Of a stretch of 64,000 nt of DNA, positions 4,067 to 38,952 are shown in pieces (position 1 is the first letter of the stretch; the number at the start of each line of letters is the position of its first letter). A program made the position numbers and the translations under genes. Source of the DNA: Nymphaea colorata (Eukaryota; Streptophyta; Magnoliopsida; Nymphaeales; Nymphaeaceae); NCBI RefSeq assembly GCF_008831285.2, contig NC_045147.1, positions 19,410,581 to 19,474,580 of the forward strand, written 5' to 3'. A model generated the notes under the pieces. It was not told the DNA's origin. It worked only from the letters and a program-made list of their open reading frames with translations, and did not search any database.

Positions 4067-5962
4067 TTAGGGCATTACAGAAGAAGAAGATGTACGGAAG
4101 TATTCCCCAGAAGTGACGCGCTTCAGTTCCACAAGGTGATCACTGTTGCTGATTGCCAACGCATCTCTGAGCCCAGCCAGCCACTCTTCATTCTTCCACT
4201 TGTGATCCCCTTGCAGATACAGAGATTGCAGAACAAAATAATAAGTCATTCTCTTCACGTCTCTTACAGAACCATTCCAGCGCAGCTCCTTTAACACACT
4301 GTCCCCTACACCACTCGCCACATGATCGAGATGAGGGATTCTGATGAGAAGACCGTGAGGGAAGCAGCTTTCATCTGCTGTCTGATCCGTATGGCATCCA
4401 ACCGCCTTACCAATATACAGATTCAGCTTGAGCCACAGAACATGCAGTTTTATCAGAACCAATTTCATACTATAATCTGCAAAGCTGCCCATTCTATTAA
4501 TCGGCTGATTCAGACGAACTGGCCATGAATTCATAAAAGTTCTTAAGAAGTTTAGCTTTGCAAAAAAAAGAAAATGTAAAAATTTCAAAATTAGTTAAAA
4601 TAGATAATCTTGAAAGCTTATGATAATTAAAACCAACGAGGCAGAACCACAATAATCAACTCCCAAATCAATACCACCGAACGTTTGTACATTCTGAACA
4701 GATTGAATCAAAATAATACACATCACAGAGACATCAACAATGGCAGGTTTAAATGATATTTATGAAACCAATTCAAGAGCACCACATGTTCTTGAACTAA
4801 ATTTGCAAATTTTGTCAATTTCCTTCTTTATTTAATTTTCGTATATTGTCTACTTGTTCTTTTTTACCGAATTGTTATATATTTTTGACGATACACACCT
4901 AAATCGATTGAGTCAGCCGGTTGAAAGAATCGATGCACGACCGCACCACAATTTCAGGCCCTTCAACTAAAATCGGAACAACCCTTGTGCTATTTGAATT
5001 GAAAACAGCTTCCTCTTAGGAAAAGGAAGATCATAAAGTCGGGTTCTTTTCTCATATTAAATCAGGAGTTGACGCTCATGGTTAGGTTAACGATCTTAGT
5101 TTCAAATCCTGAGCATCGACTAAACAAAAGTAGCTTACTTTGGTAGGAGCTGCAGCGCTGCCCTGCCCTCCGGTGGCTTCCTCCTTCGAGTCATCAGGGT
5201 ACGTCATGTAACCGACCACCTTTTGAACAGTGATACCGACCTCAACCACGCACGTACCGTTGACAAGATACCGGTTCTCCGGGCAGCATAGAGTACTGAA
5301 ACAAATGAAAGATCCATAACAGCAGTGATCTTGAGCTGTAAAGGAATGCTTCTTATCTGTTAAACAACAAGAAGGGAAATGAAAAAAGAGAAAAATATGC
5401 CGCGAAGGTTCGGATAAAATTTTTTTTTGGGCTGCTTTCACAGCAATAATTGGCTTGATTAAACACGCCATTAATCAATATGCAGGATGCAGTAAAAATC
5501 AGCTTAAAGAACTGCCGGCGGAACATAGGAGATCAATTTTAGACATTTAGGCATACTCGCTTTGTCAGACTCCTTGCTTGTTTGATCGACAACACCCAAG
5601 GAAACTTCTGCGTCGACGGACCATTTACCCTGCTGGGTTGGAGAATCCGCGATACACAGGAACAGTCCAAGATGACCTGACGTTAAAGCAGGGACGTTCC
5701 GGTTACAGAGGGAGGCCTTTAACTTCCTGCAAACTCAGCGGAATTTTATGTAAAGTGACAAAAGGACGACTTGAGGACGATGGATATGATGAAGTTGATG
5801 ATGGATATGAAGCGAGTAGGAGAGAGTATACCATTTACAGCCCCCAAAAACAAAAACTTCGGAGTAGTAATTTCCGGTCGATAAATTGGAAATGTTGCCG
5901 ATCTTCCAAGTGCACCCAGTCGAAAGTAGCTCGCCAATCGGCCGTGTTTCCGACGTGTTCAT
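4067..5962 (-). CDS. MATH-ENT protein, array copy A, intact, 292 aa
   Basis: Four exons: 5832-5962 (ATG at 5962), 5557-5726, 5139-5356 and 4067-4426 (stop at 4067-4069). All junctions have GT-AG signals and the frame closes exactly: 879 bases, 292 residues. Exons 1-3 form a MATH (TRAF-like) domain, about residues 18-145: CTWKIGNISNL, then SEVFVFGGCKW, LGLFLCIADSP, KWSVDAEVSLGVVDQ and a C-terminal strand around CVVEVGITVQKVVGY. Exon 4 has a linker of about 60 residues and then an ENT domain, about 234-282: YYFVLQSLYLQGDHKWKNEE, WLAGLRDALAISNSDH. MATH domains bind peptide partners; ENT is a helical dimerising domain of EMSY-type chromatin proteins (family knowledge). Function here is unknown. 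The exon 4 acceptor was chosen for frame and for agreement with copy B and is the least certain border. Confidence 0.8.
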
Positions 5963-6600
5963 GGCTTGCAGGTGAAAGCCTTAGGAGAGATACGTAAGCA
6001 ATTAAGCAAATGGTTGCCAGATGAACTCACAATTGGCTCCACCAGTACATTTGGCGGAACCCGTTGGAAACAAGTTCTTATTCGTACTGGAACTGCTTCT
6101 AGCTATGCGGAAGCCTTTATAGTTTATACAAACTTTAGGAGAGGTGGAGTTCAATGACCACTCACCAAGTCAAAGGCATCACAATTTTTTAAGAATCTCT
6201 GACGAAATTATATTCCCAACCCACTCTTTTAAGTTTTCTAAATATCACGGATTCCAATTTTTTGCGGAAGCTAGAAGGACATCTGTACTCAAAAGTACAA
6301 TGAGAGAATGTTTGAATGCTACTGCAAAACTAACTTCGTTCATCTGGTTATTGAGTGGGATACAAAACTCCGTCTTAGGCAACTTTCAGTATCAGATGTC
6401 AGAACACCTATGTCTATGCACTTTCAGAAGTTTTCAAAACTTATGTGGCGGATTAGTATCTGATACAGTTACATAAAATTTTACTCAAAACTTACAATGC
6501 AAACGTATTTGCCCTTGACACTTGACGTCTCTCTATCTCTCTCGCTCAGAGCTGGATACAAAACTCTGCGTTTGGCAACGTATGACCTTCTACGGGAAGT
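5963..6600. repeat. Shared upstream region of array genes (copy A)
   Basis: Sequence directly 5' of gene A that is repeated, with small changes, upstream of copies B (10268-10600), C (14259-14830) and D (19697-20020). Landmarks are CTTAGGAGAGATACGTAAGC, GGTGGAGTTCAATGACC and CCCAACCCACTCTTTTAAG. It should hold the promoter and 5' UTR of each copy. I see no clear TATA box. Plus-strand open frames here are broken in other copies and are not kept. Confidence 0.55.
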
Positions 6601-6610
6601 CCAAAGCAAC

Positions 6611-6814
6611 TTATTTCCCTGAAATCAGACGCTTCAATTCCGTCGCATGATCGCTGTTGCTGATTCCCAAAGCGTCGCTCAGCTCACTTAGCCAAGCCTC
6701 ATTAGACCACTTGTGATCGCCTTTCGTATAAAGAGATTGAAGAACATAGTGGTAGACCTTCCTGTTGCAATCTCTCTGAGAACCACCCAACCATATAGCC
6801 CAATCTCCTGTCAC
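6611..6814 (-). pseudogene. Solo ENT exon (fragment of a MATH-ENT gene)
   Basis: An open stretch ending in TAA at 6611 encodes YHYVLQSLYTKGDHKWSNEA and WLSELSDALGISNSDH, an ENT domain of the A/B/E type. No linker and no adjacent MATH exons are present, only a remnant of MATH exon 3 about 0.6 kb upstream (7383-7470). It is the undeleted relative of the two fragments at 14891-15036 and 21075-21220, which share a 31-base deletion. Probably a relic, although the frame itself is open. Confidence 0.7.
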
Positions 6815-7382
6815 ATGTCCAATACATCAGAAACTTTTTAAGAAGAAATCAATTTAAGTAATTCTTATGCAAAAGCAGTTTTAAATTTCTTATGGTTCCA
6901 AAGTATCATGCACAACTTCGAAGATCGTGGGGAAGCTCAAACGAAAATTGCCACATTTATCTATCGCCAATCCACTTTGATTTAGACCGGAATCTTTCAA
7001 TGCGATAAATGCAGATTACGAATTATTATTTTTAAATGTAGAATGTAGAGCCTACTTACTGTGTAGCGTTTTCAAAGAAGCAAATATATTCAAGCACCTA
7101 GGTTGCTAGTTCTAATGAATTTGGTGGGAAAACCCTAAAGTCCAAATTTCATTTTTATTGAAACTTCGTTGATTCAGTTTTTCTTTCCATGTTATCCGAT
7201 ATGAACAATTCAGAAGCATCATTAATTCGTTATCTGTTCCACCTGATACCTTAAACCCCTCTACGTCGCTTTTTCTTGCTCTCTTTCTCACTTGATGTAT
7301 TTTTGTTTTCAGCTTTTTGTTTCTTCTTTCTTTACTGTGCTGATTACTCGGAACTAAGGCTGGGCATCGGGCCTGGGCCGGG

Positions 7383-7470
7383 CCGGTGGCCTCCTCCTTG
7401 CAGCCATCATGGTACGTTATGTAAACGACCACCTTTTCAAACGTGACACCGACCTCAGCCACACACGTAC
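7383..7470 (-). pseudogene. MATH exon 3 fragment
   Basis: The minus strand reads CVAEVGVTFEKVVVYITYHD followed by GCKEEATG, matching the end of exon 3 in the array genes (CVVEVGITVQKVVGYMTYPD). It is followed by a GC-rich GGGCCTGGGCCGGGCC-like stretch that breaks the similarity. Only this part of the exon is present. A relic. Confidence 0.65.
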
Positions 7471-7512
7471 CGTTAAGAACTCTTTCTCCAGTAAATGATT
7501 CATTTCACGAAC

Positions 7513-7908
7513 TCAGCTGCAGCTAGGTGTACTTTCAAGATGATGGAGGTAATTTTATGGTTTACATTGATTCACTTTTTGAGCTTGATTTTATCATATA
7601 ATTCATGGCTCTAAGTATGATTTATTTGTCAACATTTCGGTAGTATCTTAGTTTTGCAATTCGTGCCTCAAAATGCCCTGTATTGTTTGCTGATGTGTAC
7701 ATTTTATAATGTTAATATTCAAAATCATTTGGGTGAAGTCATGGTTTTGAAGGTGAATATGCAGTCTATAATCATATAATTAGTATGCCTACGTGTGTGA
7801 TACGGTCATATAGTTCTTGTTTTTCTAGTTGATGATTGCGTCTTTTTTCTATTTTGCAGGAGCTACGGGATTCTGTTTCCTGGGAACGCAGGAGATCAAC
7901 GTGATTAA
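7513..7908 (+). repeat. Duplicate of the UBL5 3' intron end and terminal exon
   Basis: The segment starting AGCTAGGTGTACTTTCAAG matches 2652 onward, with deletions. The end, GAGCTACGGGATTC onwards (7858-7908), is near-identical to 2977-3026, including the preceding polypyrimidine tract and CAG acceptor. There is no UBL5 coding sequence nearby. The array's duplication unit therefore once ran from inside the UBL5 3' intron into the MATH-ENT gene. Confidence 0.75.
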
Positions 7909-7929
7909 GGTCATACGACCAACGTGATT

Positions 7930-8389
7930 CTGTCTCCCTCTTTTTCTCTTGCATTTTGTTTTTTATCTTTTTGTTTCCAGTTTACTTTGCTGATTACTTA
8001 TATCGTGTCAATTTTATCGGATGTATCCGAAGAGACTACTTTGCTGATTACTTGGAACAGCTTGACATCGCGTTTTTGATGATTGTATCCCCATTTTTTG
8101 ACGGCCCATGCGAGTACAGTATAATAAAAGTACGCAGGAAAGAGATTGATATTTTTCTCAGTATGTGTTCATCTGGTTACAGTGTTGGACAGAGAATTCT
8201 GCTTTCATATCAGACTCGATAGAGCTTCAGTAAAATTGGAAAATACGTCTAATTCTCTCGGATTAACATGTAGCAACCGAAAATACATAACCTTGAATTG
8301 TAGATAAAAAAAAACTATTCGCAAGCGAGCAATATCAATTGAAATTTGGAAAACTACTTGCTCTCGATCGGTAGAAGGGCTAGGGGACA
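7930..8389. repeat. Array spacer repeat, second copy
   Basis: Diverged copy of about 3520-4066: shared CTGATTACTTATATCG, TTTTTTGACGGC and CAGTATAATA blocks, then the same approach to the ENT stop codon. It lies immediately 3' of gene B, as the first copy does for gene A. No gene seen. Confidence 0.6.
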
Positions 8390-10267
8390 TTAGGGCATTA
8401 CAGAGGAAGAAGAAGATGCACGGAAGTATTCCCCAGAAGTGACGCGCTTCAGTTCCACAACGTGATCACTGTTGCTGATTGCCAACGCATCCCTAAGCTC
8501 GGCCAGCCACTCTTCGTTCTTCCACTTGTGATCCCCTTGCAGATACAGAGACAGCAGAACAAAATAGTAAGTCATTTTGTTCACGTCTCTTAGAGAACCA
8601 TTCCACCGTAGCTCCTTCGACACACTGTCCCCTACACCGTTCTCCACATAATCGAGGTGAGGGATTCCGATGAGCAGCCCCTCAGGGAAGCAGCTTTCAT
8701 CTGCTGTCTCATCCGTACGGGATCCAACCGCCTTACCGATATCCAGATTCAGCTTGAGCAACAGACATGCAATTATATCAGAACCAATCTCAAACTATAA
8801 TCAGCAAGGCTCCCCATTCTAGTAATCGGCTGATTACGAGTTGGCTACGAATTGAGAAAAATTCTTAAGTATAAACTTTGCAAAAAAAATGTAAAAAATT
8901 CGAAATTAGTTTAAATAGATAACCTTGAAAATTTAAGATAATTAAAATCAACGTGGCAGAACTATAATCAACCTCCAAATCAACACCACAGAAAGTTTGA
9001 TCAATCTGAACCGATACATCAGTGTCATCAACATAAGCTGGTTTAAATAATATCTATCAAACCAATTCAAGAGCACCACATGTTCTTGAACTAATTTTGC
9101 AAATTTTATCAATTTCCTTTTTTATTTAAATTTCCTATATCGTCTACTTATTTGTTTACCGAATTTCTATATATTTTTGACGCTTCACACCTAAATCGAT
9201 TGAGTCGGCTCGGCCGTTTGACAGAATAGTTGCACGACGACACCACAATTTCAGGCCCTTCACCTAATATCGGAACAACCCTTGTGATATTTGAATTGAA
9301 AACAGCTTCCGCTTAGGAAAAGGAAGATCATAAAGTCTGCTTCTTTCTCATTTTAAATCAGGAGGTGCTGCTCATGGTTAGGTTAGCGATCTTAGTTTCA
9401 AATCCTGAGCATCGAGTCGAAAAAAGTAGCTTACTTTGGTAGGAGCTGCGGCGCCGCCCTGCCCTCCGGTGGTTTCCTTCTTCGAGTCATCAGGGTACGT
9501 CCTGTAACCGACCACCTTTTGAACCGTGATAGCGACATTAATAACACACGCATCGTTGACAAGACACCCTTTCACCGGGCAGTGTACAGTAAATGAATTC
9601 TCAAAGAGGCAGTAAATTGCTTGAGGTGTGAAGGAATGCTCCTCATCTGTTAAACAAGAAGAAGGAAATGAGAAAAGAGAAAACTACGCCACGAAGGTTC
9701 GGATAAAAAATTTTCTTGGGGGTGCTTTCACAGCAGTAATTGGCTAGAATAAACGCTCCATTAATCAATCTGCAAGATACAGTAAAAATCAGCTTAAAAA
9801 ACCGCTAGGGGAACAGAGGAGATCAGTTTTAGACATTTAGGCATACTATATTCGGCACTCTCCTTGCTTTTTTGATCGACAACGGCGAAGGAAAATTCTG
9901 CGTCGACGGACCATTGACCGTGCTGCGTTGAAGAGTCCGCGATACACACGAACAGATTAAGAGAAATTGGTGGTGGTAGACCACTATAGTCCATGCTCCA
10001 GGGGTCAACCATTAACTGCCTGCAAATTCAGAGGAATTTTATGGAAAGTGACAAAAGGAAGACTTGAGGACGATGGAGATGCTGAGGTTGATGATGATGA
10101 TGAAGCGAGTAGGTGAGACTGTACCATTTACAGCCGCCAATGACAAAAACACCGGAGTAGTATTGTCTTCTCGAACTTAACTTGGATAGGTTGCCGAGCT
10201 TCCAAGTGCGCCCCGTGGCCCCGGTCGAAAGTAGCTCGCCGAACGGACATGTCTCCGACGTGTCCAG
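8390..10267 (-). pseudogene. MATH-ENT gene, array copy B, start codon lost
   Basis: Four exons at 10125-10267, 9847-10019, 9435-9646 and 8390-8752, all with GT-AG borders and one open frame: 891 bases, 296 residues if read from the ancestral start position. That position (10265-10267) is CTG, where copies A, C and D have ATG, and an in-frame TAA lies a few codons upstream. The next in-frame ATG is in exon 2, inside the MATH domain. Exon 1 has 12 extra bases relative to A. The MATH motifs remain (TWKLGNLSKL, SGVFVIGGCKW, WSVDAEFSFAVVDQ) and the ENT domain is well kept (YYFVLLSLYLQGDHKWKNEE, WLAELRDALAISNSDH). Either a young pseudogene or a gene using CTG or an unseen first exon. The otherwise clean frame means the loss is recent or the gene still works. 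Confidence 0.65.
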
Positions 10268-10589
10268 GGCTTGCAGGTGAACACCTTAGCACAGATACGT
10301 AAACAATTAAGCAAATGGTTGCCAGATGAACTCACAATTGGCACCACCAGTTCATTTGGCGGAACCCGTTGAAAACAAGTTCTTATTCGTACTGGAACTG
10401 CATCTAGCTATGCGGAAGCCTTTATAGTTTATACAAAGTTTAGAGGGGTGGAGTTCAATGACCACTCACCAAGTCCAAGGCATCACAAATTTTAAAGAAT
10501 CTCTTGCGAAATTATATTCCCAACCCACTCTTTTAAGTTTTCCAAATATCAAGGATTCCATTTTTTTGGGAAGCTATAACGACTTCTGT

Positions 10590-11150
10590 ACTCAAGTGTA
10601 AGGCGTTTTCATTGAAGGAAAGGTAATTAGGTACCTGAGTTGAAGTATTAAATCCTATCTCTGTCAAATACCATTGCATGTTCAGATGGATATTCATATT
10701 ACATTTGATAAGAAAAACCGTAAATCGTGATTCCAGTTTGATTGCTAATTAATAGATTCATTTTCTCGTTCTAAGTTTGGCCACTCATATTCAGATAGTT
10801 ATCAGACTATTAAAATTTAAAATTGCTCATGTACAGGAATTCTGGTTAAAATGTGTGATAGAGAATTGTATTAGCCGTAGTTCGTATATCAAGTGGCAGA
10901 TTCCTAATGCTGTGCACTCCCGGAATTCCGACGCATATTTATTGATAAAGAGTGGAGGAGATTTACAGTTTTTAGAAAGACAGACCAGCATCATCAGCAT
11001 GGTGGTTTCCCTGGACACGGTCAACATTGTTTGCCATTCCCCGGTTTCTATCGATGAAGAGTAGATGATTTTTTGACAGATTTTAGAAGGAAGACCTGAC
11101 CTGTAATTTTCCAGGACACCCATTAAGATATTTGCCGTCGAAAAACGTAG
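10590..11150. repeat. Array segmental duplication, partner of 20010-20590
   Basis: About 560 bases nearly identical to 20010-20590, directly upstream of copy B as the partner is of copy D (AAGGAAAGGTAATTAGGTACC, GCCACTCATATTCAG, CAGTTTTTAGAAAGACAGAC). A third, more diverged copy is at about 16140-17050. Long open frames occur on both strands in this segment, but without family matches, and the third copy breaks them. Confidence 0.65.
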
Positions 11151-12683
11151 TCACTAGGGAAGAAACAGAAATGCAATGTTGGAATCAATATTGAACTTGA
11201 TAAATCATTTAAGAGGAAATTATTGTAATTAAATTCTTATGCAGCTTCTGCAGCCATAGTTATTGCCGCTAAAGCTTCTGCAGTTTCTTCAACCATGTAC
11301 GCAGTAGAGTTCAATAACCCAGTCACCTGAAATCTTTTAAGAGGAAATTAATGTAATTAATTCTTCTGAGAACTTCGTTCGTATGTTATTAAAATAATAT
11401 GCACAACTTCCAAAATCATGGGGAAGCTCAAAGGAAATTTGCCGCACTTATCCATCTCCAATCCACTTTGACGTGGATTAGATTCTTGAATATTACAATC
11501 GATTGCAGATTACAAACTAATATTTTCAACCTGCAGACTGTAGAGCATATTTAGTGTGCAGGCAGACTGTAAAGACTACTTACTGTGTAGCGTTTGCATA
11601 GAAGCAAATGTATTTCAGTACCAGGTTCTCGATCCTGTCTCCGTTGAGTGCCATTGCATGTTTAGGTGAGTACTGGATTTGGCGGGGAGTCCCTGAAATT
11701 CAATTCCATTTTCATTGAAAACTGATTGATTCAGTTTTTCTTTCCATGTTTTACCAGTTCTCCATCACTGTCACGTCTCATGGTATTCTTTTTCTAAACA
11801 GTAGTAGGTCTCAAAAACAAGCTTTGTGAACGCAAATAGTTGTAGGGCGTCCTCAATTGTGTCACATCCTAGTGCATTCTTCTTGTGAACCCTAATAGGT
11901 TTCAAAGAAAGCTTTGGTGAGGGCACCTAGGTGTTTTTTCTTTTCTTTTTTGAGTATTAGGTTTCAAACGAATTCCCAAATCAAAATTACTTGCAATTCC
12001 CAATTTTAACCGTCCGAATTACCATTTTCCTATTCCCGAATCTCAATTCCTGATTTTGACGATTTTCAAAACCAAGCTCACAATTTACAATTGTTTCCAA
12101 TTTAAAGCTCCAATTCCTATCTTTGGAATTCAAAAGAATTTCAAATCAATCTTCAATCATACTTTTTCTGAACTAATTCAAATGTTTTATTATCAAAATC
12201 AAATTCCAAATTTGTTCAAAATTAGCTTCGAAATCTGCACATGAATATGGGAGGAAAATCATCAAATGACTTGTACAAATTGAGTCCAACCACTATAACT
12301 CGCTTTACTTTCGAGGATTTGATACATAAAAAGAAGGATATGGCACAAGGGAGAAGAAGATAAATTGTCCTATTTTGATCATGAACCTCGCTATCCAACA
12401 AGGCCACCAACTACGAGTTACCATGTTGGAAATTTTTAAACATAAAAAAGGATGAGGTGAACCAAACGTCGAGGGGAGAGGAGATGCTTCCATGATTCTT
12501 ATATTATGCCATTTCTTAAACACCAGATGTGCCACCAATTGCATTGATTGAAGTACCATGAAAGCCACACAGAAAAAGAAAAAAAAAACTCCAACCCTTC
12601 ATACTTGTAGAGATCATAGAGCAGAGAACCAGGTTCCTACAATAAGAGATAATTAATAGCCAAAGAAGATTCAGAATTCCTAA
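11150..12683. other. Array spacer, no gene seen
   Basis: AT-rich. About 11335-11630 resembles the block at 6830-7100 (AAGAGGAAATTAATGTAATT, ATCGTGGGGAAGCTCAAA-type sequence). The part from about 12300 to 12680 matches 17910-18160 (GGATATGGCACAAGGGAGAA, CTCGCTATCCAACAAGG), that is, the 3' flanks of copies C and D. About 11990-12240 is a low-complexity AATTCCCAAATC-rich stretch. Confidence 0.5.
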
Positions 12684-14258
12684 TCACCCAGAAAGAACAT
12701 GCCTAAGATACATGGCGTGATCGCTGCTGCTGATTCCCATAGCCAATCTAAGCTCAGTTAACAATGCTGCCTTTTTCCAAGTAAGCTCACCGTCCTGGGA
12801 CAAAAAACGCAGCACAACAAGATATGCTTTCTCCTTCTCCTCAGTACTCTGACAACCGTCCGAACCCAACTGCAGAAAAGCGATCTTGTCAAAAGCAATA
12901 TTGAACTAGAATTCAACATATAACAACTACATTTAGTGAATAGGACGTCGATTCGGGCGATCAATTGTACATTCAGTTTTGAAAAGAAAACATTTGAAAC
13001 TTTATTTGAATTAAGCATCTCAGTATGACACTATGGATTCAAAACTACTTAGACAATTATGTCCTGGTATTATCAAAATGGGCTTTAAATCGTAGATTAT
13101 TTGGAAAAATTTACATACTTAATCCTTTATTGACATTTCGTATATCGTCTACTTTTTTTTCCCGCAATTTTTATATATTTCTGAATATTAACACCTAAAT
13201 CGATTGAGTCAGCCGTTCGACAGAATCGATGCACGACGGCACAACAATTTCAGGCCCCTCGGCTAACATCGGAACAACCCTTGCGCTATTTGAATTGAAA
13301 ACAGTTTCCACTTCGGAAAAGGAAGACCACAAAGTCGGGTTCCTTTCTCATTTTAAATAAGGAGGTGCCGCTTATGGTTAGGTTAGCGATCATAGATTCA
13401 AATTCTGAGCGTCGACTAGAAAACAGTAGCTTACTTTGGTAGGAGCTGCAGCGCCGCCCTGATCTCCTGTGGTTTCCTCCTTCGAGTCATCAGGGTACGT
13501 CATGTAACCGACCACCTTTTGAACCGTAATATCGACCTCAACCACACACGTGTCGTCGACAAAATACCCTTTCTCCAGGCAGCGTAGAGTTCTCAAATTA
13601 ATGAAATCCTGACTACCGTCAGTGCCAAATTCATACTGTTGAGCTGTAAAGGAACGCCACATATCTGTTAAGCAACAAGGGAAATGAGAAAAGAGAAAAC
13701 TACGACACGAAGGTTCGGATAAGAACTTTTCTTGGGACTGCTTTCACAGCAATAATTGGCTTGATTAAACACGCAGTTAATCAAACTGCAAGATGCAGTA
13801 AAAATCAGATTAAACAACTGCCAGGGGAACAGAGGAGATCTGTTTAGACATTTAGGCATACTCTTTTTGGCGCACTCCATGCCCTTTTGATCGACAACGG
13901 CCAAGGAAAATTCTGCGTCGACGGACCATTGACCGGGCTGGGTTTGGGAGTCCCCGATACACAGGAACAGATCAAGGAAAACATCACCGCAGACGCAACG
14001 GTGGTCAGCCATCAACTTCCTGCAAACTCAGCGGAACTTTATGGAAAGTGAGGAAAGGGCGACTTGAGGAAGAAGGAGATGATGAGGTTGATGATGATGA
14101 TGAAGCGAGTAATTGAGATCATACCACTTACAGCCGCCAATTACAAAAACTTCGGAGTAGTGTTTTCTTCCTTTCCTTAAATTGGAAAAGTTGCCGATCT
14201 TCCAAGTGCACCCCGTCGAAAGTAGCTCACCAGTCGGCCGTGTCTCCGACGTGTTCAT
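12684..14258 (-). CDS. MATH-ENT protein, array copy C, intact short form, 235 aa
   Basis: Four exons: 14125-14258 (ATG at 14258), 13862-14019, 13435-13664 and 12684-12869 (stop at 12684-12686). GT-AG borders throughout and a single open frame of 708 bases. MATH domain about residues 18-150: CTWKIGNFSNL, SEVFVIGGCKW, LDLFLCIGDSQ, QWSVDAEFSLAVVDQ, CVVEVDITVQKVVGYMTYPD. The ENT exon has almost no linker (LGSDGCQSTEEKEK) and then a canonical ENT domain, about 189-235: AYLVVLRFLSQDGELTWKKA, ALLTELRLAMGISSSDH. This ENT is clearly closer to EMSY-LIKE ENT domains than those of copies A, B and E, while the MATH part is close to A. The exon 4 acceptor (CTTTTCTGCAG) is strong. Function unknown. Confidence 0.82.
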
Positions 14259-14830
14259 GGCTTGCGGGTGAAAGCCTTAGCACAGATACGTAAGCAATTA
14301 AGCAAATGGTTGCAGATGAACTCACAATTGGCTCCACCAGTACATTTGGCGGAACCCTTTGGAAACAAGTTCTTATTCGTACTGGATCCGCTTCTTATAG
14401 TTTATACAAACTTTAGGAGAGGTGGAGTTCAATGACCACTCACCAAGTCCAAGGCATCACAAATTTTTAAGAATCTCTTGCGAAATTATATTCCCAACCC
14501 ACTCTTTTAAGTTTTCCAAATATCAAGGATTCCATTTTTTTTGGGAAGCTAGAAGGACTTGTGTACTAAAAAGTACAATGAGAGAATGTTTGAATGCTAC
14601 TGCAAAACTAACTTCATTCATCTGGTTAGAGAGTGGTATACAAAACTTTGTGTTTGGCAACTTTCAGTATCAGATGTCAGAACACCTATTTCTATGCACT
14701 TTCACAAGTTTTCAAAACATATGCGGCGGATCGGTATCTGATACAGTTCGTAAAATTTCACACAGAATGTACAACGCAAGCGTATTTGCCCTCGACACTT
14801 TGACCTCTCTCTATCTATCTCGCTGAAGAG
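14259..14830. repeat. Shared upstream region of array genes (copy C)
   Basis: Counterpart of 5963-6530, upstream of copy C, with the same landmarks (GGTGGAGTTCAATGACC, CCCAACCCACTCTTTTAAG, AGTATCAGATGTCAGAACAC). It presumably contains the promoter. No TATA box is obvious. Confidence 0.5.
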
Positions 14831-14890
14831 TTGGATACAAAACTCTGCGCTTGGCAACGTATGACCTTCAACGGGAAGTCCAAAGCAACC

Positions 14891-15036
14891 CATTTCCCTG
14901 AAATCAGACTCTTCAATTCCCTCGCATGATCGCTGTTGCTGATTCCCAAAGCGTCGCTCAGCTCACGCCTTTCGTATGAAGAGATTGAAGGACATAGTGG
15001 TAGGCCTTCCTGTTACAATCTCAATGAGAACCGTCC
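14891..15036 (-). pseudogene. Broken ENT exon with a 31-base deletion
   Basis: The minus strand reads HYVLQSLHTKG and then shifts frame. Compared with 6611-6814, 31 bases are missing between CTCAGCTCAC and GCCTTTCG (junction at about 14966). After the gap the DNA still matches the ISNSDH end of the domain, but out of frame. The same deletion is present at 21075-21220, so these two loci descend from one deleted ancestor. Confidence 0.75.
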
Positions 15037-16110
15037 AATCACTGCTACACTTCATGAGCAATTATGTCCAATACGTCAGAAATTTTTTAAGAGGAAATTA
15101 ATGTAATTGATTCTTATGCAAACGCAGTTTTAAATTTCTTAAGGTTACAAAGTATCATGCACAACTTCCAAGATCGTGGGGAAGCTCAAACGAAAATTGC
15201 CGCACTTATCTATCGCCAATCCACTTTGCTTTGGACCCGAATCTTTCAATGCGATAAATGCAGATTACGAATTAGTATTTTTAAATGTAGAATATAAAGC
15301 CTACTTACTGTGTAAACTGTAACGTTTTCAAAGAAGCAAATATATTCAAGCACCTAGTTGGCCAGTTCTACTGAATTTGGTGGGAAAACACTAAAATCCA
15401 AATTCCATTTTTATTGAAACTTCATTGATTCAGTTTTTCTTTCCATGTTATCCGATATGAACAATTCAGAAGCATCATTAATTTATTATCTGTTCCACCT
15501 GATTCATTAAAATTCAAAACGGAAAACATGTTTGAACAGCTTGGTATTGGTCTTATCCTTTAGTTTTAGTGATATCCATCCATAATTTCTCTAGGAACCC
15601 CAAGAAAACAAGTTTCCCTTGGCAATCATCTTGTCTTGGAAGGGAATCAAAAAATGGTGATACCATCTGATCGACTTTGCCCGTTTCTCTGTTTCCTTCA
15701 GGAAGAAGGTACCCCAGTTCCCTCCGTCAAGAAAGTCTAATGAAATGACGAAGTTCAGTGGCGAAAGTTTTCCATTATCACAGTCATCTACTATTGTAAG
15801 CAGAACAAACATGGTACCCGCTTCTCTCATACTATTACAGTATCGGCTTGGCTCTTGGTGGTGGCATGCGCTTAAACCCCTCTCCATCGCTTTTTCTTGC
15901 TCTCTTTCTCTCTTGATGTATTTTTGTTTCTTCTGTACTGTGCTGATTACTTGGAACAGCTTGTCACCACTTTTTTGATAATTGTACTACCATTTTTGAC
16001 TCCTCATGTCAGTACAGTATAATAAAAAAATGCCAGTGCGCAGGAAAGAGCATGATTTTTCTCTTTCAGTCTGTGCTTATGTTCATGGGGTTGTAGTGTC
16101 GCATAGAGAA
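15036..16110. repeat. Array spacer repeats, partner of 21220-22310
   Basis: 15036-15510 matches 6820-7240 and 21290-21670 (CATGCACAACTTCCAAGATC, GAAGCAAATATATTCAAG). 15560-16110 matches 3180-3520 and 21720-22310 (CCATAATTTCTCTAGGAACC, AGAACAAACATGG, CAGTATAATAAAAAA). Blocks are in the same order as in the 21-22 kb copy. No gene seen. Confidence 0.6.
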
Positions 16111-16119
16111 TTCATTTCC

Positions 16120-18161: not shown

Positions 18162-19696
18162 CTAATCCCCCAGAAAGAGCATGCTTAAGATAGCATGATC
18201 GCTAGTGCTGATTCCCAGAACCTCTCTAAGCTCGGTCAGCAATGCTTCCTTTTTCCAAGTAAGCTGAGCTTCCTGGTACAAACACCGCAGCACAATAAGA
18301 TATGCATTCTTCTTCTCCTCAGTACTCTGACAACCGTCAGAACCCAACTGCAGAAAAGCGATCTTGTCAAAAGCAATATTGAACTAGAATTGAACATTTA
18401 ACGACTACATTTAGTGAATAGGACGTCGAATCGGGCTATCAATTATACATTCAGTTTTGAAAAAAAACATTTGAAACTTTATTTGAACTAATCATCTCAA
18501 TCTGACTCCATGGATTCAATATGGATTCAAAACAACTTAGACAATTATAACCAGGTGTTACCAAAATGGGCTTTCAATCATTAAATAATTTTGCAAATTT
18601 AACTAATTTCCTCCTTGTTTACATTTCGTATATCGTATACCTATTTTTTCCCGATTTTTTACATATTTTTGACGATTCACACCTAAATCGATTGAATCAG
18701 CAGTTTGACAGAATCGATGCACAACGGCACAACAATTTCAGACCCTTCACCTAATATCAGAACAACGCTTGTGCTATTTGAATTGAAAACAGCTTCAGCT
18801 GCGGAGAAGGAAGATCACAATGTCGGGTTCTATTCTCATCTTAAATCAGGCGGTGCCTCTCATGGTTAGGTTGGCGTTCTTAGTTTCAAATCCTGAGCAC
18901 CGACTCAAAAAAAGTAGCTTACTGGCGTAGGAGCTGCATAGACGGCCTGCGCTCCGGTGGCTTCCTCCTTCGAGTCATCAGGGAACGTCATGTAACCGAC
19001 TACCTTTCGAACCGTGATACCGACCTCAACCACACACGTATCGTTGACAAGATACTCTTTCTCCGGGCAGTGTAGACTTCCGAAACAAATGAAAGCTGGA
19101 AGACCGCATTGATCTCTTTGAGCTGTAAAGGAATGCTCCATATCTGATAAACAGCAAGAAGGGAAATGAGAAGAGGAAACTACGACACGAAAGTTCGGAT
19201 AAAAAAATTTCTTTGTTTAGCTTTCACAGCAATAATTGGCTTGATTAAACGCGCCATTAAGAGATCAGTTTTAGACATTTAGGCATACTCTTTTTTGCAC
19301 TCTCACTTGCTTTTTTGATCGACAACGGCCAAGGAAAATTCAGCGTCGACGGACCATTGACCATGCTGGGTTGGAGAATCCGCGATACACAAGTACAGAC
19401 CAAGATAACCTGAAGTTACAGTGTTGGAGTCCCAGCGATAGGGGGCAGCCATTAACTTCCTGCAAACTCAGCGGAATTTTATGGAACACTAATAAAAGGA
19501 CGACTTTAGGGCGATGGAGATGATGAGGTTGACGGTGATGATGAAGCGAGTTGGAGAGACTATACCATTTACAGCCGGCAATCACAAAAACTTTGGAGTA
19601 GTATTTTCCGGTCGATAAATTGGAAAAGTTGCCGATCTTCCAAGTGCACCTCGTCGAAAGTAGCTCGCCAATCGGCCGTATCCCCGACGTGTACAT
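18162..19696 (-). pseudogene. MATH-ENT gene, array copy D, frameshifted
   Basis: Exons at 19566-19696 (ATG at 19696), 19289-19459, 18923-19143 and 18162-18347 keep GT-AG borders. Exon 2 carries one extra base: where B has AGCAAGGAGAGT, D reads AGCAAGTGAGAGT, creating TGA after about 95 residues. The summed exon length (709) is one over a multiple of three, which agrees. The ENT exon (AYLIVLRCLYQEAQLTWKKE, ALLTELREVLGISTSDH) is otherwise C-like, but a 4-base loss just after the DH changes the last residues to AILSMLFLGD. Exon 3 is open (EHSFTAQ, CVVEVGITVRKVVGYMTFPD). Predicted product: a truncated MATH domain without ENT. Probably a recent pseudogene. Confidence 0.75.
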
Positions 19697-20010
19697 GGCT
19701 TGCAGGTGAAAGCCTTAGGAGAGATACGTAAGCAATTAAGCAAATGGTTGCCAGATGAACTCACAATTGGCTCCACCAGGACATTTCGCGGAACCCGTTG
19801 AAAACAAGTTCTTATTCGTACTGGAACTGCTTCTAGCTATGCGGAAGCCTTTATAGTTTATACAAAGTTTAGGAGGGGTGGAGTTCAATGACCACTCACC
19901 AAGTCCAAGGCATCACAAATTTTAAAGAATCTCTTGCGAAATTATATTCCCAACCCACTCTTTTAAGTTTTCCAAATATCAAGGATTCCATTTTTTTTGG
20001 GAAGCTATAA
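19697..20010. repeat. Shared upstream region of array genes (copy D)
   Basis: Counterpart of 5963-6290 and 10268-10590. It is closest to the B copy, sharing GGAGGGGTGGAGTTC and the following AAGCTATAACGACTTCTG where A and C read AAGCTAGAAGGAC. No TATA box seen. Confidence 0.5.
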
Positions 20011-20590
20011 CGACTTCTGTACTCAAGTGTAAGGCGTTTTCATTGAAGGAAAGGTAATTAGGTACCTGAGTTGAAGTATTAGATCCTATCTCTGTCAAAT
20101 ACCATTGCATGTTCAGATGGATATTCATATTACATTTGATAAGAAAAACCCTAAATCGTGATTCCAGTTCGATTGCTAATTAATAGATTCATTTTCTCGT
20201 TCTAAGTTTGGCCACTCATATTCAGATAGTAATCAGACTATATTAAAATTTAAAATTGCTAATGTACAGGAATTCTGGTTAAAACGTATGATTGAGAATC
20301 GTATTTGCCGTAGTTCGTATCTCAAGTGGCAGATCACTAATGGTGTGCACTCGCGGAATTCCGACACATGCTTACTCATAAAGAGTGGAGGAGATTTACA
20401 GTTTTTAGAAAGACAGACCACCATTATCAGCATGGTGGTTTCCCTGGACACGGTCAACATTGTTTGCCATTCCCCGGTTTCTATCGGTGAAGAGTAGATA
20501 ATTTTTTCACAGATTTTAGAAGGAAGACCTGGCCTGTAATTTTCCAGGACACCCATTAAGATATTTGCCGTCGAAAAACGTAGTCACTAG
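20010..20590. repeat. Array segmental duplication, partner of 10590-11150
   Basis: About 560 bases, near-identical to the segment upstream of copy B. Both copies keep overlapping open frames on the two strands (about 70 codons plus, about 100 codons minus), but nothing in them resembles a known family and the relic at 16.2-17.0 kb is broken. Confidence 0.65.
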
Positions 20591-21074
20591 CACCTCTCTC
20601 CCTCTCTATCTCCGATTTACACGGTATGGAAATGAATCACGGGTGACGAATGTCAACTGCAAATCAAACTGGCAGAACTAGATGCTCTGTAGCAGTAAAG
20701 TGGCAAAGAGAGAAAGTCCATTACACAGTCCACTAAAAAGTACAAGCCGAGAATGTTTGTATGCTACTACAAAGCTAACTTCGTTCATCTGGTTATAGAG
20801 TGGGATATAAAACTCTGTGTTTGGCAACGTACCGCCCAGTATCAGATGTCAGAACAGCTATTTCTATATTTCTATGCACTTTTACAAGTTTTCAAAACAT
20901 AAGCGGCGGATCGGTATCTGATACAGTTCATAAAATTTTACACAGAATTTACAACGCAAACGTATTTGCCCTCGACACTTTGACCTCTCTCTATCTATCT
21001 CGCTGAAGAGTTGGATACAAAACTCTGCGTTTGGCAACGTATGTATGACCTTCAACGGGAAGTCCAAAGCAACC

Positions 21075-21220
21075 TGTTTCACTGAAATCAGACTCTTCAA
21101 TTCCCTCGCATGATCGCCGTTGCTGATTCCCAAAGCGTCGCTCAGCTCACGCCTTTCGTATAAAGAGATTGAAGAACATAGTGGTAGGCCTTCCTCCCGT
21201 TACAATCTCTCGGAGAACCA
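21075..21220 (-). pseudogene. Broken ENT exon, second copy of the deleted form
   Basis: It matches 14891-15036, with the same CTCAGCTCAC/GCCTTTCG junction in place of the 31 bases found at 6611-6814. The domain is out of frame. The flanks on both sides also match the 14.7-16.1 kb block. Confidence 0.75.
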
Positions 21221-22310
21221 TCCAATCATAGCTACTCCTCATGAGCATTTATGTGGTCGGCTCTAGCCGCTGTAGAGCTCAATCACCTGTCACATGTCCA
21301 ATACATCAGAAATTTATTAAGAGGAAATTAATGTAATTAATTCTTATGCAAAGGCAGTTTTTAATTTCTTATGGTTCCAAAGTATCATACTCAACTTCCA
21401 AGATCGTGGGGAAGCTCAAACGAAAATTGCCGCATTGCAGATTACGAATTAGTATTTTTAAATGTAGACTGTAGAGACCACTTACTGTATAGCGTTTTCA
21501 AAGAAGCAAATATATTCAAGTACCTAATTCTCTACTGAATTTTGTGGGAAAACCCTAAAATCCAAATTCCATCTTTATTGAAAACTCATTGATTCAGTTT
21601 TTCTTTCCCTGTTACTTATCCGATATGAACAATTTAGAAGCATCATCATCTGTTCCACCTGATTCATTAAAATTTAAAACGGAAAAGTTGTTTGAACAGA
21701 TTTGTATTGGTCTTATTCTTTAGTTTTAGTGATATCCATCTATAATTTCTCTAGGAACCGCAAGAAAACAAGTTTCCTTAGGCAATCATCCTGTCTTGAA
21801 AGGGAATAAAAAAAGGGTGATGCCATCTGATCGACTTTGCTTGTTTCTGTGTTTCCTTCAGGAAGAAGGTACCCCGGCTCCCTCCGTCAAGAAAGTCTAA
21901 TGAAATGAGCAAGTTCGGTGGCAAAAGTTTTCTAATATCAAAAGTTTTTCCATTATGACAGTCATTTACTATTGTAAGCAGAACAAACATGGGTAGCATC
22001 TTCTCTCATACTGTTACAGTATCCACTTGGGCTCTTGGTCGTGGCATGCGCTTAAACCCCTCTCCATCTCTTTTCCTTGCTCTCTTTCTCTCTTGATGAA
22101 TTTTGTTTCGGCCTTTTGTTTCTTGTTTAATGTGCTGATTACTGGAACAGCTTGTCACCACTTTTTTGATAATTGTACCAACATTGTTTACTCCTCATGC
22201 CAGTACAGTATAATAAAAAAAATGGCAGTGCGCAAGAAAGGGCATGATTTTTCTCTTCAGTCTGTGCTTATGTTCATGGGGTTGTAGTGTCTAGTAAAAA
22301 ATTCTGTGTT
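21220..22310. repeat. Array spacer repeats, partner of 15036-16110
   Basis: Same block order as 15036-16110: the fragment flank, then the CCATCTATAATTTCTCTAGG block, then the CAGTATAATAAAAAA block. It ends near 22310, which is the right-hand limit of the homogenised array. No gene seen. Confidence 0.6.
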
Positions 22311-23653
22311 TGCCATTCTTTCAATCTTTTGAGACTTTCTTAGGAAATAGTAATTCTCAATCACGATACTGCAACTTTCAAGTTTTCTAAAAGCCACAAC
22401 TTCCACGATCTTGGGGAAGCTAAATGGACATCATCCCAGCTATCTATCTTCTTTGGTAAACAATAATGTTTGTAACATGCATGCAGACTGTAGATCGAGC
22501 CTATACTTAATAATGTAAAGCTTCCTCCATAGAATGAAGGAATCCCAGTACTTAGTCCAGTCACTAGGTCCTTTCTCCGGTAGATACCACCGCTTGTTTA
22601 GTTATCTAAATCAAAATGTAATTCCAATTTCATTGCTAATAAATTCATTTAGTTTCTATCTTTCCGAGTTGGACTACGCCGATTCAGATATATACTTAGT
22701 TATCAGATATTAACTATTTTCGTCGTCATTCCTAGCTCTTCCACCTCCTCCATTAAAATTGAAGCCGATACACCTGCTTGTGAACATCTCAACAACTTAC
22801 TAACATGCATTAACAGTGGAATGTGGCTCGCAATATTGTACGTACCCAGGTGCCCTAATATATTATATATTCACTTTAAAAAATTATATTTATTAGTATA
22901 TTCATTTGGACCTCACCTATTTTGTTTGTACTCTCCTATAAAAAATTATATTTGTTTGTGCCGTGCTAGTTGGGTTTTATGCCCCAGAGCATAGTGGTTT
23001 GGAACCTGATCTGATTCTTGCGATATCTGAAAACTAGATTCATTTCATAAATTAAGACTTTGTAGCCGAATCATCCAAATTAAGGGGTCAACAAAAATAA
23101 ATAATCTTTTTAGGGCTCCCTATCCTTAACTCCAAGAAAATTAATCTCCCTCTCTCTCGAACTTTTGCAGGAAATTGATTAACCAAGGATTCATCTTCAA
23201 AATACGCTTCGTTGTTGACAATTAATCAGTAAAACATTAAGCTTTTGCCATCTATAACGAAATAACATGAAGATCATGATTGCCTTTGTTAATAAATTTT
23301 GAGCTCCGTTAAATAACTTTCTAGCATTAGAAAAGGCAAGAGCTTCCAAATAATTATGTTAGGTATTGATAACAAGAATTATTATTTGGATGTAGTTAAT
23401 CATTTTTTTGTATTATTAGTAGAGTTAAAGAGTCTAATGCAAGCTCATGAACTTAGAGTAACTTCGAAGATGACGAGCGAAAGATCTTTGTAGCATACAA
23501 AACTGATCATTCAGATGAAGCAACAACCCGTCGGCTTATAGCATTCAATAAATAGATATATTCTTCGACATATACACAAAGATGAAAGAAATTGACAGAT
23601 AGGGTGACCAATGCCTAGAGGGATACACACCACAGGAGGAAACGGCAAGCAGA
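22310..23653. other. Spacer between the array and copy E, no gene seen
   Basis: AT-rich. Faint similarity to array spacers up to about 22800 (GGGGAAGCTAAATGGACATC, ACTGTAGA) and apparently unique sequence after that. Nothing coding recognised. Confidence 0.45.
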
Positions 23654-25679
23654 TTACTCTTTAAACGGTCGCGATGCAGGAATGCATTCCCCATAAAGCA
23701 CACGCTTTAGTTGCATGATGTGATCATCGTTGCTGATTCCAAGTGCGCCTCTGAGCTCGGTCAGCCAAACCTCATTCTTCCACTTGTGGTCACCTTGTAG
23801 ATGCAGAGACTGCAACACAAAACGATACGCCAACTCATTCACTTCTCTCTCCGATCCATATCCCTCCACCCCTTTTTGGTAACCATCAATGCTCCTCGAA
23901 CGCCTGTGCTGAGGGATGTTGGTGGGCAGCAGACTATCTGGAGGGACTGTCTGAACAACACGGCTTTCCGGCTTCTCGTCAACGTCCGGCTTCTGCTTGG
24001 GAGAAGCCGATGCATCTTCCATCTTCTTTACAGTCTCCAGGGCACCACTCTTTTGCTGTATAATTTGAGAAAACGACCATGTTTCACTTTTCGCTTTACT
24101 TTAAGCCCCTTTTGGCCACAACACAAAAGAAAAAAGGGCCAGTACCCATTTGGTGTGTTTAGTTTTTATGAAAATTTAATTTTAAATTTATTTAAGTTTA
24201 GTTGCTGCATTTTATATCTTTTAATTAAGTCCAATTGATGAGTTTACGTTGGTTTGATTATTGAGGTTTGATTAAGAGAAGCTATGTCTAGTTTGTCATT
24301 ATAAAACTTATCTGCTAGGAAATTAACTCTACCGATAAAGTATTAATTATTCAGACTTGGATTTATTTGCAATTAGTATCATATCTATATCCAGGTCCAA
24401 ATTTCTTTCAGTTTCTATATCCATTATCAAATTGATAAGACGCCGATGCCAATATTCACAATATTGGTGAGATCGACCTTCTCTCCCACCTGATCCCCGA
24501 TATCATCTACCAATCACAGTCTAACTCAAATCAACACTCATCAATACCAGCCTCATAGTGCCTTTTTTTGAAAATCGAATCAAAGAGGTGGAGCCAAGGG
24601 AGGGGCAGCAGTGGCCCTGGTGCAAAACCATTTAAAAAAAAAAATTACATGTAAGTTTTAAAAAAATATATATTTATCCTATATAAAAAGTTTGAGAAAT
24701 GACATTTCAACACTTGTCAAAATTTTGAAAATAATTCAGCCACCTTCATGTAAAATTTTTAGCTCTCCTCCTAGAGAAAGGTATTAGATAGCATGCTTCT
24801 ATGATGCCGCTAAAAAGGTCAAAGAAAGAGTGAGAGAGAGACGATGCAAAGGTGAGCCTGTGTGCAGGAGACCACCTCTCGCAAGCTACTCATTTACCTT
24901 GCCCTGAGCTGCTGCTTCGACAGACTCTCCATCGTCGTACATTCTGTAACCGACCGTCTTCTGGACAGAGATACCAACCTCAACCAAACACGAATCATTG
25001 ACAAGATATCCTTTTTCTGGGCTGCGTAGATCACTGAGAGCCAAGATGGACCTATGGCCCCAGTCTTTCTCCTGTGCCGTAAACTTATGCTCAAAATCTG
25101 TCAAACCACCAGAACAGAAAACAGGAACAGAAATTATGCAGCCAGAAGTCGGTTCAAAGACCTTCATGATGCTGCATAAGGAGCAATATTTTGGCAGCAA
25201 TCTGCATGCTATGTGAAGAAGGAAGACATGGAAAAATCTGTGATCTTATGGATGACTGAAAAGGAGACTACCGCCATATGTAAATGAACTCAACCAACAA
25301 AGGAGATCTATTTAGGAAATGTCGGGGAACCTTTTATGGTACCGATCTTCTTGCTCAATTGATTGATCACCGCCAAGGAATGCTCGGCCTCCACGCTCCA
25401 TCCGTCTGGTTGAGTCGAAGAGTCGGCGATGCCCAAGAACAGCCCCAACGATGATTTATTCTGACGGACGTTGGGAAAGATCAACAGCTTCCTGAAAATG
25501 CAGGGTATATATGAAGACGATAATGAGAGAGAGAGAGAGAGAGAGTACCATCTGCAGCCGCCGACAACGAAGACGTCGGAGTAGTATTTCTCTTTGTTCA
25601 TCTTGGAGAAGTTGTCGATCTTCCAAATGAACCGCGTCGGAAAAAGCTTGCCGACCGGCCGTTGCTCCGTTGAGGTCAT
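23654..25679 (-). CDS. MATH-ENT protein, copy E, intact and most diverged, 293 aa
   Basis: Four exons: 25549-25679 (ATG at 25679), 25343-25491, 24898-25097 and 23654-24055 (stop at 23654-23656). Frame closes at 882 bases. The MATH domain, about residues 17-140, is the most canonical of the five: FIWKIDNFSKM, SDVFVVGGCRW, KLLIFPNV, LGLFLGIADSSTQPDGWSVE, HSLAVINQ, GYLVNDSCLVEVGISV. A charged linker (161-234, rich in Lys, Asp, Pro, Ser) leads to the ENT domain, about 235-283: LAYRFVLQSLHLQGDHKWKN, WLTELRGALGISNDDH. It lacks the repeated flanks of A-D, so it may be nearest the ancestral single copy. The exon 2 donor (GTACCA) is weak and was chosen to fit frame and the other copies. An upstream in-frame TTG is not needed. 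Confidence 0.83.
25525..25545. repeat. (GA)n microsatellite in intron 1 of MATH-ENT copy E
   Basis: About ten GA units directly next to the exon 1 donor (25547-25548). On the gene's strand it reads as a CT run just downstream of the 5' splice site. Confidence 0.8.
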
Positions 25680-38833: not shown

Positions 38834-38944
38834 TTTGATTTCTTGGGGAGGCGAGCAAATCAGACGTGTGTGTGTGTGCGGAGGAGAGAAAAGGGGGGGA
38901 AAAGCAATCGGCAGGTGATGGGAATTCCCTTCCCCCAACGACTG

Positions 38945-38952
38945 TATTTATA
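38945..38952 (-). promoter_or_regulatory. TATA box of DUF538 copy 1
   Basis: TATAAATA on the minus strand, 112 bases before the ATG, within the motif GATCAGCTATAAATACAGT. The same motif with one change precedes copy 2. Confidence 0.7.

Follow-up and report, generated by a model that had tools for sequence, protein, structure and literature searches.

Five four-exon units carrying MATH and ENT domains

Within the 64,000-nucleotide stretch of DNA analyzed here (the window), five homologous four-exon units (A to E) lie in tandem on the minus strand between positions 25679 and 4067. In each unit, exons 1 to 3 encode a MATH domain and exon 4 an ENT domain (Table 1). All introns of the five copies are GT-AG (15 of 15), with phases 2, 1, and 0 in A, B, C, and E, and likewise in D if an inserted base is discounted. 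Gene A (5962-4067), gene C (14258-12684), and gene E (25679-23654) read without a break from ATG to stop over four exons and would encode 292, 235, and 293 residues, respectively. Copy B (10267-8390; 296 codons) has CTG where the other copies have ATG, and copy D (19696-18162) carries a one-base insertion in exon 2 that leads to a frameshift and a TGA. On visual inspection, the acceptor proposed for exon 4 of A and B seems weak, and the two copies have a one-base difference immediately 5' to it. The gene models and profiles thus bear out the five units sharing MATH exons and an ENT exon that had been described in the initial annotation, and the lengths and outer coordinates given there for the three open copies agree exactly with ours.

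Table 1. Exons, remnants, and the putative exchange region of the MATH-ENT cluster (positions in the window)
Feature	Position	Strand	Remarks
Gene E exon 1	25549..25679	-	ATG, MATH start
Gene E exon 2	25343..25491	-	MATH
Gene E exon 3	24898..25097	-	MATH end; Asp-Trp pair of USP7-type groove kept; phase-0 donor
Gene E exon 4	23654..24055	-	low-confidence linker, then ENT, stop
ORF upstream of copy D	20882..21199	-	degenerate ENT remnant; outside-gene ENT profile 15.4 bits; Pfam unmatched
Copy D exon 1	19566..19696	-	
Copy D exon 2	19289..19459	-	broken: one-base insertion, in-frame TGA
Copy D exon 3	18923..19143	-	
Copy D exon 4	18162..18347	-	ENT, C/D lineage
ORF upstream of gene C	14815..15012	-	degenerate ENT remnant; outside-gene ENT profile 18.4 bits; Pfam unmatched
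Gene C exon 1	14125..14258	-	ATG
Gene C exon 2	13862..14019	-	
Gene C exon 3	13435..13664	-	
Gene C exon 4	12684..12869	-	ENT, C/D lineage; without long linker; first in-frame ATG not before mid-ENT
Copy B exon 1	10125..10267	-	CTG replaces ATG
Copy B exon 2	9847..10019	-	
Copy B exon 3	9435..9646	-	
Copy B exon 4	8390..8752	-	ENT, A/B lineage; exon 5' end uncertain
Exon-3-like remnant	7340..7477	-	upstream of the 6611..6826 remnant; 46% over 47 residues, E 9e-4
ORF with ENT remnant	6611..6826	-	Pfam ENT 24.1 bits, below cut-off; matches outside-gene ENT profile
Gene A exon 1	5832..5962	-	ATG
Gene A exon 2	5557..5726	-	
Gene A exon 3	5139..5356	-	
3' part of gene A intron 3	4427..4826	-	BLAST block common with C ends at ~4826 (~13125 in C), the presumed exon-4 exchange point
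Gene A exon 4	4067..4426	-	ENT, A/B lineage; exon 5' end uncertain

Both domains were found by the Pfam profile search that the initial annotation had suggested, which covered the spliced proteins of A, B, C, and E. MATH_2 (PF22486, cut-off 32 bits) scored 52.8-106.5 bits (E 6.5e-14 to 1.7e-30) and MATH (PF00917, cut-off 21.2 bits) 39.2-61.7 bits. For ENT (PF03735, cut-off 28.5 bits), C alone of the four spliced proteins exceeded the cut-off (32.1 bits), in line with the earlier remark that the pattern is clearest in this copy, while A, B, and E scored 28.1-28.3 bits, 0.2-0.4 bits below it. Each stop-to-stop frame with an exon 4 in it passed the gathering score, all five giving 29.6-35.4 bits (E 7e-7 to 1e-8). 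A second ENT profile, derived from six genes that lie outside the window, matched 8 of the 800 window ORFs of at least 40 codons, all within the cluster, namely the five ENT exons and three remnants; the absence of matches in 20 shuffles ruled out chance. A Pfam scan of three remnant ORFs, including those upstream of C and D, gave no matches. The remnants at 7340-7477 and 6611-6826 are together taken as the relic of a sixth MATH-ENT copy.

A PDB search with a profile of six ENT stretches from the window matched human EMSY alone (1uz3, 1utu, and 2fmm; E 2.8e-6 to 5.4e-6; limit E 10). The predicted structure of E exon 4 alone, as a monomer, has a mean pLDDT of 65.5, with ten-residue blocks reaching 76-93 in residues 71-120 and 45-61 in residues 1-70; the top five Foldseek structures are all EMSY, with weak E-values (0.63-1.3) and probabilities of 0.95-0.99. 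No Rfam match was obtained at the gathering score, and, as expected for a plant gene, no relative was found in the viral contigs scanned with E or in the bacterial and archaeal genomes scanned with the ENT alignment. Taken together, profile, frame, splice phase, and conservation support a MATH-ENT architecture, and a joined protein is predicted.

Relatives of the two parts in the same genome

The genome search for MATH listed at least 28 matches. Among the matches listed for E outside the cluster, the best MATH matches were UBP12/13-type exons, one gene lying at C1:20.11 Mb and the other at C2:13.36 Mb. These are 49-50% identical to the MATH domain of E, compared with 36% for one TRAF1-like sequence, while ten further MATH sequences reach 23-30%. 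The two UBP genes share with E the residues at which two introns lie, in phases 2 and 1, and also have a phase-0 third intron. Exon 3 of the C2 gene continues into UCH, while the MATH part of E ends before the catalytic-Cys segment of the protease, and the spliced A, B, C, and E proteins gave no UCH match at E 0.1. The PDB matches of E were to USP7 in 11 of 11 cases. In a MATH tree that contained one of two TRAF1-like genes and ten other MATH stretches, several of them partial, A-E were grouped at 90/99, but the tree does not separate UBP, TRAF1-like, and MATH-ENT clearly enough to give A-E a nearest neighbor; a value of 100% of 200 bootstraps, which sets A-E against two UBP rows only, was set aside for 90/99. 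Judged by identity and intron positions rather than by the tree, the MATH part appears nearest to the UBP12/13 (USP7) type. A BTB-type (ubiquitin-ligase) source was rejected, given 16-25% identity to four MATH sequences that we take to be BPM-like. The initial annotation had proposed that these proteins could bring a MATH-bound target or ubiquitin ligase to a dimeric chromatin-type scaffold; since the MATH part seems nearest to the UBP12/13 type and not to BTB proteins, competition with a deubiquitinase would fit better than a ligase.

Among the ENT matches listed, the nearest was a terminal exon on contig C5, with 49% identity over 104 residues including the linker. In a small ENT tree (57 columns, with a long-branch warning), the cluster and this exon group together, with four EML-like genes and three further ENT genes on the other side of the split (94/93). 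The four EML-like genes, which we presume to be EML, form a branch of their own that excludes the cluster (96/95), and an EML source of the ENT exon was rejected on this ground. The earlier label "EMSY-type" therefore holds for the fold, where the PDB and structure matches are to EMSY, but not for an EMSY-LIKE-type gene source. An Agenet domain lies ~11.5 kb upstream of the C5 ENT exon on the same strand, and the two may belong to a single gene; on C1, an Agenet-ENT gene likewise has a phase-0 intron before its ENT exon. The spliced A, B, C, and E proteins did not match Agenet, and none of the eight Agenet matches listed for the genome is on contig C10.

Proposed joining and exchange of exons, and selection

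The same arrangement could also arise if adjoining MATH-only and ENT-only genes, head to tail, had been duplicated together and gave separate proteins. The introns of 565-842 bases between exons 3 and 4 would allow for this, as would gene E, in which a stop lies three codons beyond the exon 3 border and an ENT-only protein could begin at an in-frame ATG within exon 4; in addition, a dispersed linker-ENT piece occurs at C8:7.14 Mb without a MATH match within the 3 kb seen. Yet the exon 3 frames of A, B, C, and E, and also of D, contain no stop before a canonical donor, this donor and the proposed acceptor are both phase 0, and the terminal ENT exon of the C1 Agenet-ENT gene also follows a phase-0 intron. 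Moreover, in C and D the first ATG of the ENT frame comes no earlier than mid-ENT, so that an upstream exon is required. We consider separate proteins quite improbable.

The third intron also seems to carry the trace of a later event. Identity between A/B and C/D falls from 80-90% in its first 300 columns to 43-68% in columns 420-719, and two ENT lineages (A/B and C/D) are present, each retaining phase 0. Exon 4 would thus have been exchanged within intron 3 after the fusion, leaving different ENT lineages in A/B and C/D.

Comparison of E with A, B, and C gave dN/dS values of 0.38-0.42 for MATH, and comparison of E with A, B, C, and D values of 0.32-0.46 for the ENT exon. When A, B, and C were compared with one another, MATH gave 0.73-1.07, a range that decay would also give, and the C-D ENT value of 0.56 was not significant (z 1.4). 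No paper on positive selection in MATH-BTB was found in the literature searched. The MATH range for A, B, and C, together with the broken copies B and D and the three remnants, would suit a dying family, in which a single fusion was followed by decay of most or all copies, so that E alone, or no copy, still functions. Against this, A, C, and E are open, and between A and B the amino-acid change in MATH is 3.5 times that in the ENT exon (pN 0.235 vs 0.067, p 2.8e-9). The two parts have similar silent change (0.231 vs 0.173, p 0.39), whereas simple decay would treat both parts alike in amino-acid change as well. In reading this contrast, it should be considered that B lacks the ATG and that conversion between exon 4 of A and B is possible. 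On balance, a dying family seems unlikely.

As to novelty, a MATH-ENT pairing was not found in the literature searched, which consisted of papers, and the excerpted text of a plant MATH survey names MATH-only, MATH-BTB, MATH-USP7, and MATH-PEARL4 types (PMC10218331). That protein databases already contain annotated plant proteins of this architecture, with the cluster as one more lineage, seems to us less likely than not.

A proposed protease-free MATH protein and its known counterparts

We see about an even chance that the cluster is a chimeric gene family of UBP12/13-type MATH and an ENT exon, acting as a protease-free MATH on a nuclear binding module. Direct support comes from the domains, the frames, the splice signals and phases, the nearest relatives in the same genome, the similarity change in intron 3, and selection on the coding frame; from these we infer a spliced message and, for MATH-ENT, protein binding, cell location, and effect. 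Exons 1-3 would go back to the MATH-coding portion of a UBP12/13-type deubiquitinase gene, truncated ahead of the catalytic-Cys segment, and exon 4 to the C-terminal ENT exon of a gene of the Agenet/Tudor-ENT chromatin kind. As the MATH and ENT pieces both flank phase-0 introns, their fusion could have occurred with no need to repair the frame. Tandem duplication, swapping of exon 4 within intron 3, and the loss of some copies would then have followed.

The product would be a UBP12/13 MATH domain, free of the protease, borne on a nuclear protein-binding module. E retains the Asp-Trp pair that belongs to the binding groove of the USP7 type, and in A-D this stretch has been rebuilt; in USP7, Asp164 and Trp165 are described as critical for one partner in the excerpted text of PMC12047801. 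E could rival UBP12/13 for partners or carry partners to ENT-bound chromatin proteins, while A-D, with their rebuilt groove stretch, probably bind other targets. According to excerpts of the respective reports, GIGANTEA binding needs the UBP12/13 MATH domain (PMC6704089), LHP1 interacts with UBP12/13, which remove H2Aub1 (PMC7296913), and UBP12/13 act on the circadian clock (PMC6704089) and on Polycomb H2A ubiquitination (PMC7296913). We tentatively suggest, as a prospect with the odds against it, a new regulator family that antagonizes or re-targets UBP12/13 at chromatin, in which one copy has the ancestral groove and the others diversify and swap ENT exons.

If the protein is made, the cluster would clearly exemplify exon shuffling between introns of matching phase, by which the binding end of a deubiquitinase became part of a chromatin-type protein that lacks the protease, with likely relatives of both parent genes persisting in the same genome. 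A competitor built from the MATH domain of UBP12/13 itself would, if real, be a new and directly testable control point for the clock and Polycomb H2A ubiquitination, and MATH-ENT a natural tool for separating MATH binding from protease action.

Among known systems, UBP12 and UBP13, the plant MATH-USP relatives of USP7, resemble E in MATH identity, in the two internal intron positions and phases, and in the phase-0 third intron, whereas in the cluster an ENT exon takes the place of the protease and of the catalytic-Cys segment at the end of UBP exon 3. EML proteins carry an N-terminal ENT with Agenet. They and human EMSY share the ENT fold with the cluster; however, the genome's four EML-like genes, besides forming a separate branch, have an ENT that is divided into two pieces. 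MATH-BTB proteins of the BPM/SPOP type likewise combine one MATH with a C-terminal protein-protein domain, but their MATH is the distant one noted above and spliced A, B, C, and E have no BTB match. The Agenet/Tudor-ENT proteins, class I in the excerpted text of PMC4634149, share with the cluster a terminal ENT exon with linker after a phase-0 intron, as in the C1 gene, and differ in that the cluster has MATH in place of Agenet/Tudor.

Gene models and domain content of the cluster

The window spans C10:19410581-19474580 of a 408 Mb genome, whose gene families (UBP12/13, DUF538 and Agenet-ENT) mark it as that of a plant. The five homologous units A to E of the MATH-ENT family, a predicted fusion of a MATH and an ENT domain, follow one another head to tail along the minus strand from 25679 to 4067, in the transcription order E, D, C, B, A. 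The initial annotation had described five four-exon genes with three open copies of 235, 292 and 293 residues, and the spliced models bear this out. All have four exons, GT-AG borders are found in 15 of 15 introns (A-E), and the reading frames of C (235 residues), A (292) and E (293) are intact. The intron phases are 2, 1 and 0 in every unit, in D only with its inserted base discounted. This one-base insertion in exon 2 of D leads to a TGA, B has CTG at the position of the ATG, and the 5' end of exon 4 is uncertain in B and A.

Exons 1 to 3 encode a single MATH domain (PF22486; E-values of the spliced proteins 1.7e-19 for A, 6.5e-14 for B, 5.4e-21 for C and 1.7e-30 for E). The ENT profile check that had been proposed for the fourth exon gave Pfam matches above the gathering score in all five exon 4 stop-to-stop frames. 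Among the spliced proteins, C scored above this value and A, B and E 0.2-0.4 bits below it, so that automatic Pfam annotation would call ENT in one of the four (C). Two ENT tests were independent of Pfam. A profile from six ENT stretches of the window matched human EMSY only among 177,635 distinct PDB sequences (three matches, E up to 10), while a profile from six ENT genes elsewhere in the genome matched eight of 800 window ORFs, all eight inside the cluster, and gave zero matches in 20 shuffles. In the predicted structure of exon 4 of E, the linker is of low confidence and the ENT forms three helices; with this model, the top five Foldseek matches were EMSY chains. Their rmsd was 1.6-1.9 over 52-55 columns, and their E-values were weak.

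Relics, family pieces and neighbouring genes; plain positions are those of the window
Feature	Position	Strand	Basis or remark
Exon-3-like relic of a sixth copy	7340-7477	minus	Sequence similarity
ENT remnant of the sixth copy	6611-6826	minus	Pfam 24.1 bits (below cut-off); outside-gene ENT profile 59.6 bits
Short ubiquitin-like ORF, presumably UBL5/HUB1-like	1875-2105	plus	Pfam ubiquitin, E 1.9e-7; just past cluster 3' end
Two tandem DUF538 genes	38405-38947 and 40511-40987	minus	102.9 bits each
F-box protein	49724-50866	plus	At3g26010-like beta-propeller
Top ENT match outside the cluster	C5:14508342-14508662		Inside a 326-codon frame; 49% over 104 residues including linker
Stray linker-ENT piece	C8:7141790-7142075		Cluster kind
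One-exon MATH piece	C10:20420870-20420992		46% over 39 residues, one TAG; 1 Mb from cluster

Probable joining and origin of the two parts

The MATH and ENT parts of the units may be separate proteins, since in E a stop lies three codons past exon 3 and exon 4 contains an ATG. Against this, no copy has an in-frame stop before the exon 3 border (in D judged within the exon 3 frame), and in all five the donor after exon 3 and the acceptor proposed for exon 4 are both phase 0. Moreover, the ENT frame of C and D is without an ATG until the middle of the ENT, so that their ENT could be made only from an upstream exon. The sixth-copy relic keeps the order of the five units, an exon-3-like piece followed by an ENT remnant.

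Of the MATH genes that whole-genome tblastn with E found beyond the cluster, those ranked first were of the UBP12/13 type, with exons at C1:20.11 Mb and C2:13.36 Mb (47-51% per exon). Over the MATH domain, E is 49-50% identical to both UBP genes, 36% to one TRAF1-like and 23-30% to ten other MATH sequences. In the MATH tree, A-E form one group (90/99), whose nearest neighbour is left open. The names UBP12/13, TRAF1 and BPM are our tentative assignments from sequence features; a UCH match downstream of the MATH in the C2 gene supports the UBP name. Introns 1 and 2 have equal residue positions and phases in both UBP genes and MATH-ENT, and the third intron of both UBP genes is phase 0. UBP exon 3 extends into the protease segment with what we take to be the catalytic Cys, and MATH-ENT exon 3 stops short of it. 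The MATH domains of the two UBP genes are 93% identical, and each of these genes has two-piece, EML-like ENT genes about 400 kb away, which may reflect a large duplication.

A tree of 14 ENTs places the C5 exon, the top match of the table, together with those of the cluster (94/93) and separates it from three other contiguous and four two-piece EML-like ENT genes. This tree is weak, having 57 columns, one starred branch and a warning of long branches. An Agenet domain lies about 11.5 kb upstream on the same strand and may belong to one gene with the C5 exon. At C1:17.75 Mb, the Agenet and ENT of one gene are separated by 1.1 kb, and a phase-0 intron precedes the ENT exon. Given these phase-0 borders, UBP12/13 exons 1-3 could have been joined onto an Agenet-ENT terminal exon, phase 0 to phase 0, with no frame repair.

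Exchange of exon 4 and divergence of the copies

Aligned from the exon 3 end, A/B share 80-90% identity with C/D in the first 300 columns and 70-80% in the 60 that follow. In columns 420-719 the value is 43-68%, while A-B stay at 71-87% and C-D at 73-95%. The BLAST block common to A and C stops at about 4826 (A) and 13125 (C), and pS between A and C rises from 0.22 for the MATH exons to 0.61 for exon 4 (p 9e-6). The drop within intron 3 and the matching silent change indicate that exon 4 was swapped there with phase 0 kept. Genome searches with E and C found at least two other family pieces, the C8 and C10 pieces of the table; a 3 kb stretch at the former gave no MATH match, and the two ORF pieces of the former no Pfam match.

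The dN/dS of E vs A, B and C is 0.38-0.42 for the MATH, and that of E vs A, B, C and D 0.32-0.46 for the ENT exon (0.23 vs C5, where silent sites are almost saturated). For the pairs within A, B and C, the MATH values are 0.73-1.07; the ENT exon gives 0.38 for A-B and 0.56 for C-D (the latter not significant). Between A and B, amino-acid change differs between the MATH (0.235) and the ENT exon (0.067; p 2.8e-9); the corresponding silent values are 0.231 and 0.173 (p 0.39). Judged from these rates, the tandem copies have a relaxed or diversifying MATH and a constrained ENT; conversion of exon 4 in the A-B pair may contribute to the contrast. Changes in A-D concentrate in two stretches, one being the site of the USP7 Asp-Trp pair, which is present in E and both UBP MATH sequences and missing from all of A-D. 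We equate it with Asp164/Trp165, as the sole Asp-Trp of the aligned USP7 stretch and with assumed numbering. An excerpt of one study describes Asp164 and Trp165 as critical for one USP7 partner (PMC12047801). E may have retained the ancestral specificity, and A and C may have acquired new ones.

Proposed action and relation to known MATH proteins

According to excerpts of the respective sources, GIGANTEA binding by UBP12/13 requires the MATH domain (PMC6704089), LHP1 is an interactor of UBP12/13, which remove H2Aub1 (PMC7296913), and plant ENT frequently accompanies Agenet/Tudor chromatin proteins (PMC4634149). The likeliest action of MATH-ENT, for which we infer binding, location and effect, is that of a protease-free MATH that would retain UBP12/13-type partners and either withdraw them from the enzyme by competition or tether them to nuclear ENT partners.

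In the open PMC library (5.39 million papers), MATH with ENT, EMSY with Meprin and TRAF, and PF00917 with PF03735 each gave 0 papers. We regard MATH-ENT as a new pairing of known domains and not as one proven to be unique. For comparison, the categories in an excerpt of a plant survey are MATH-only, MATH-BTB, MATH-USP7 and MATH-PEARL4 (PMC10218331), and for Arabidopsis and rice a portion of another source names MATH proteins that carry a BTB or lack one (PMC4923191).
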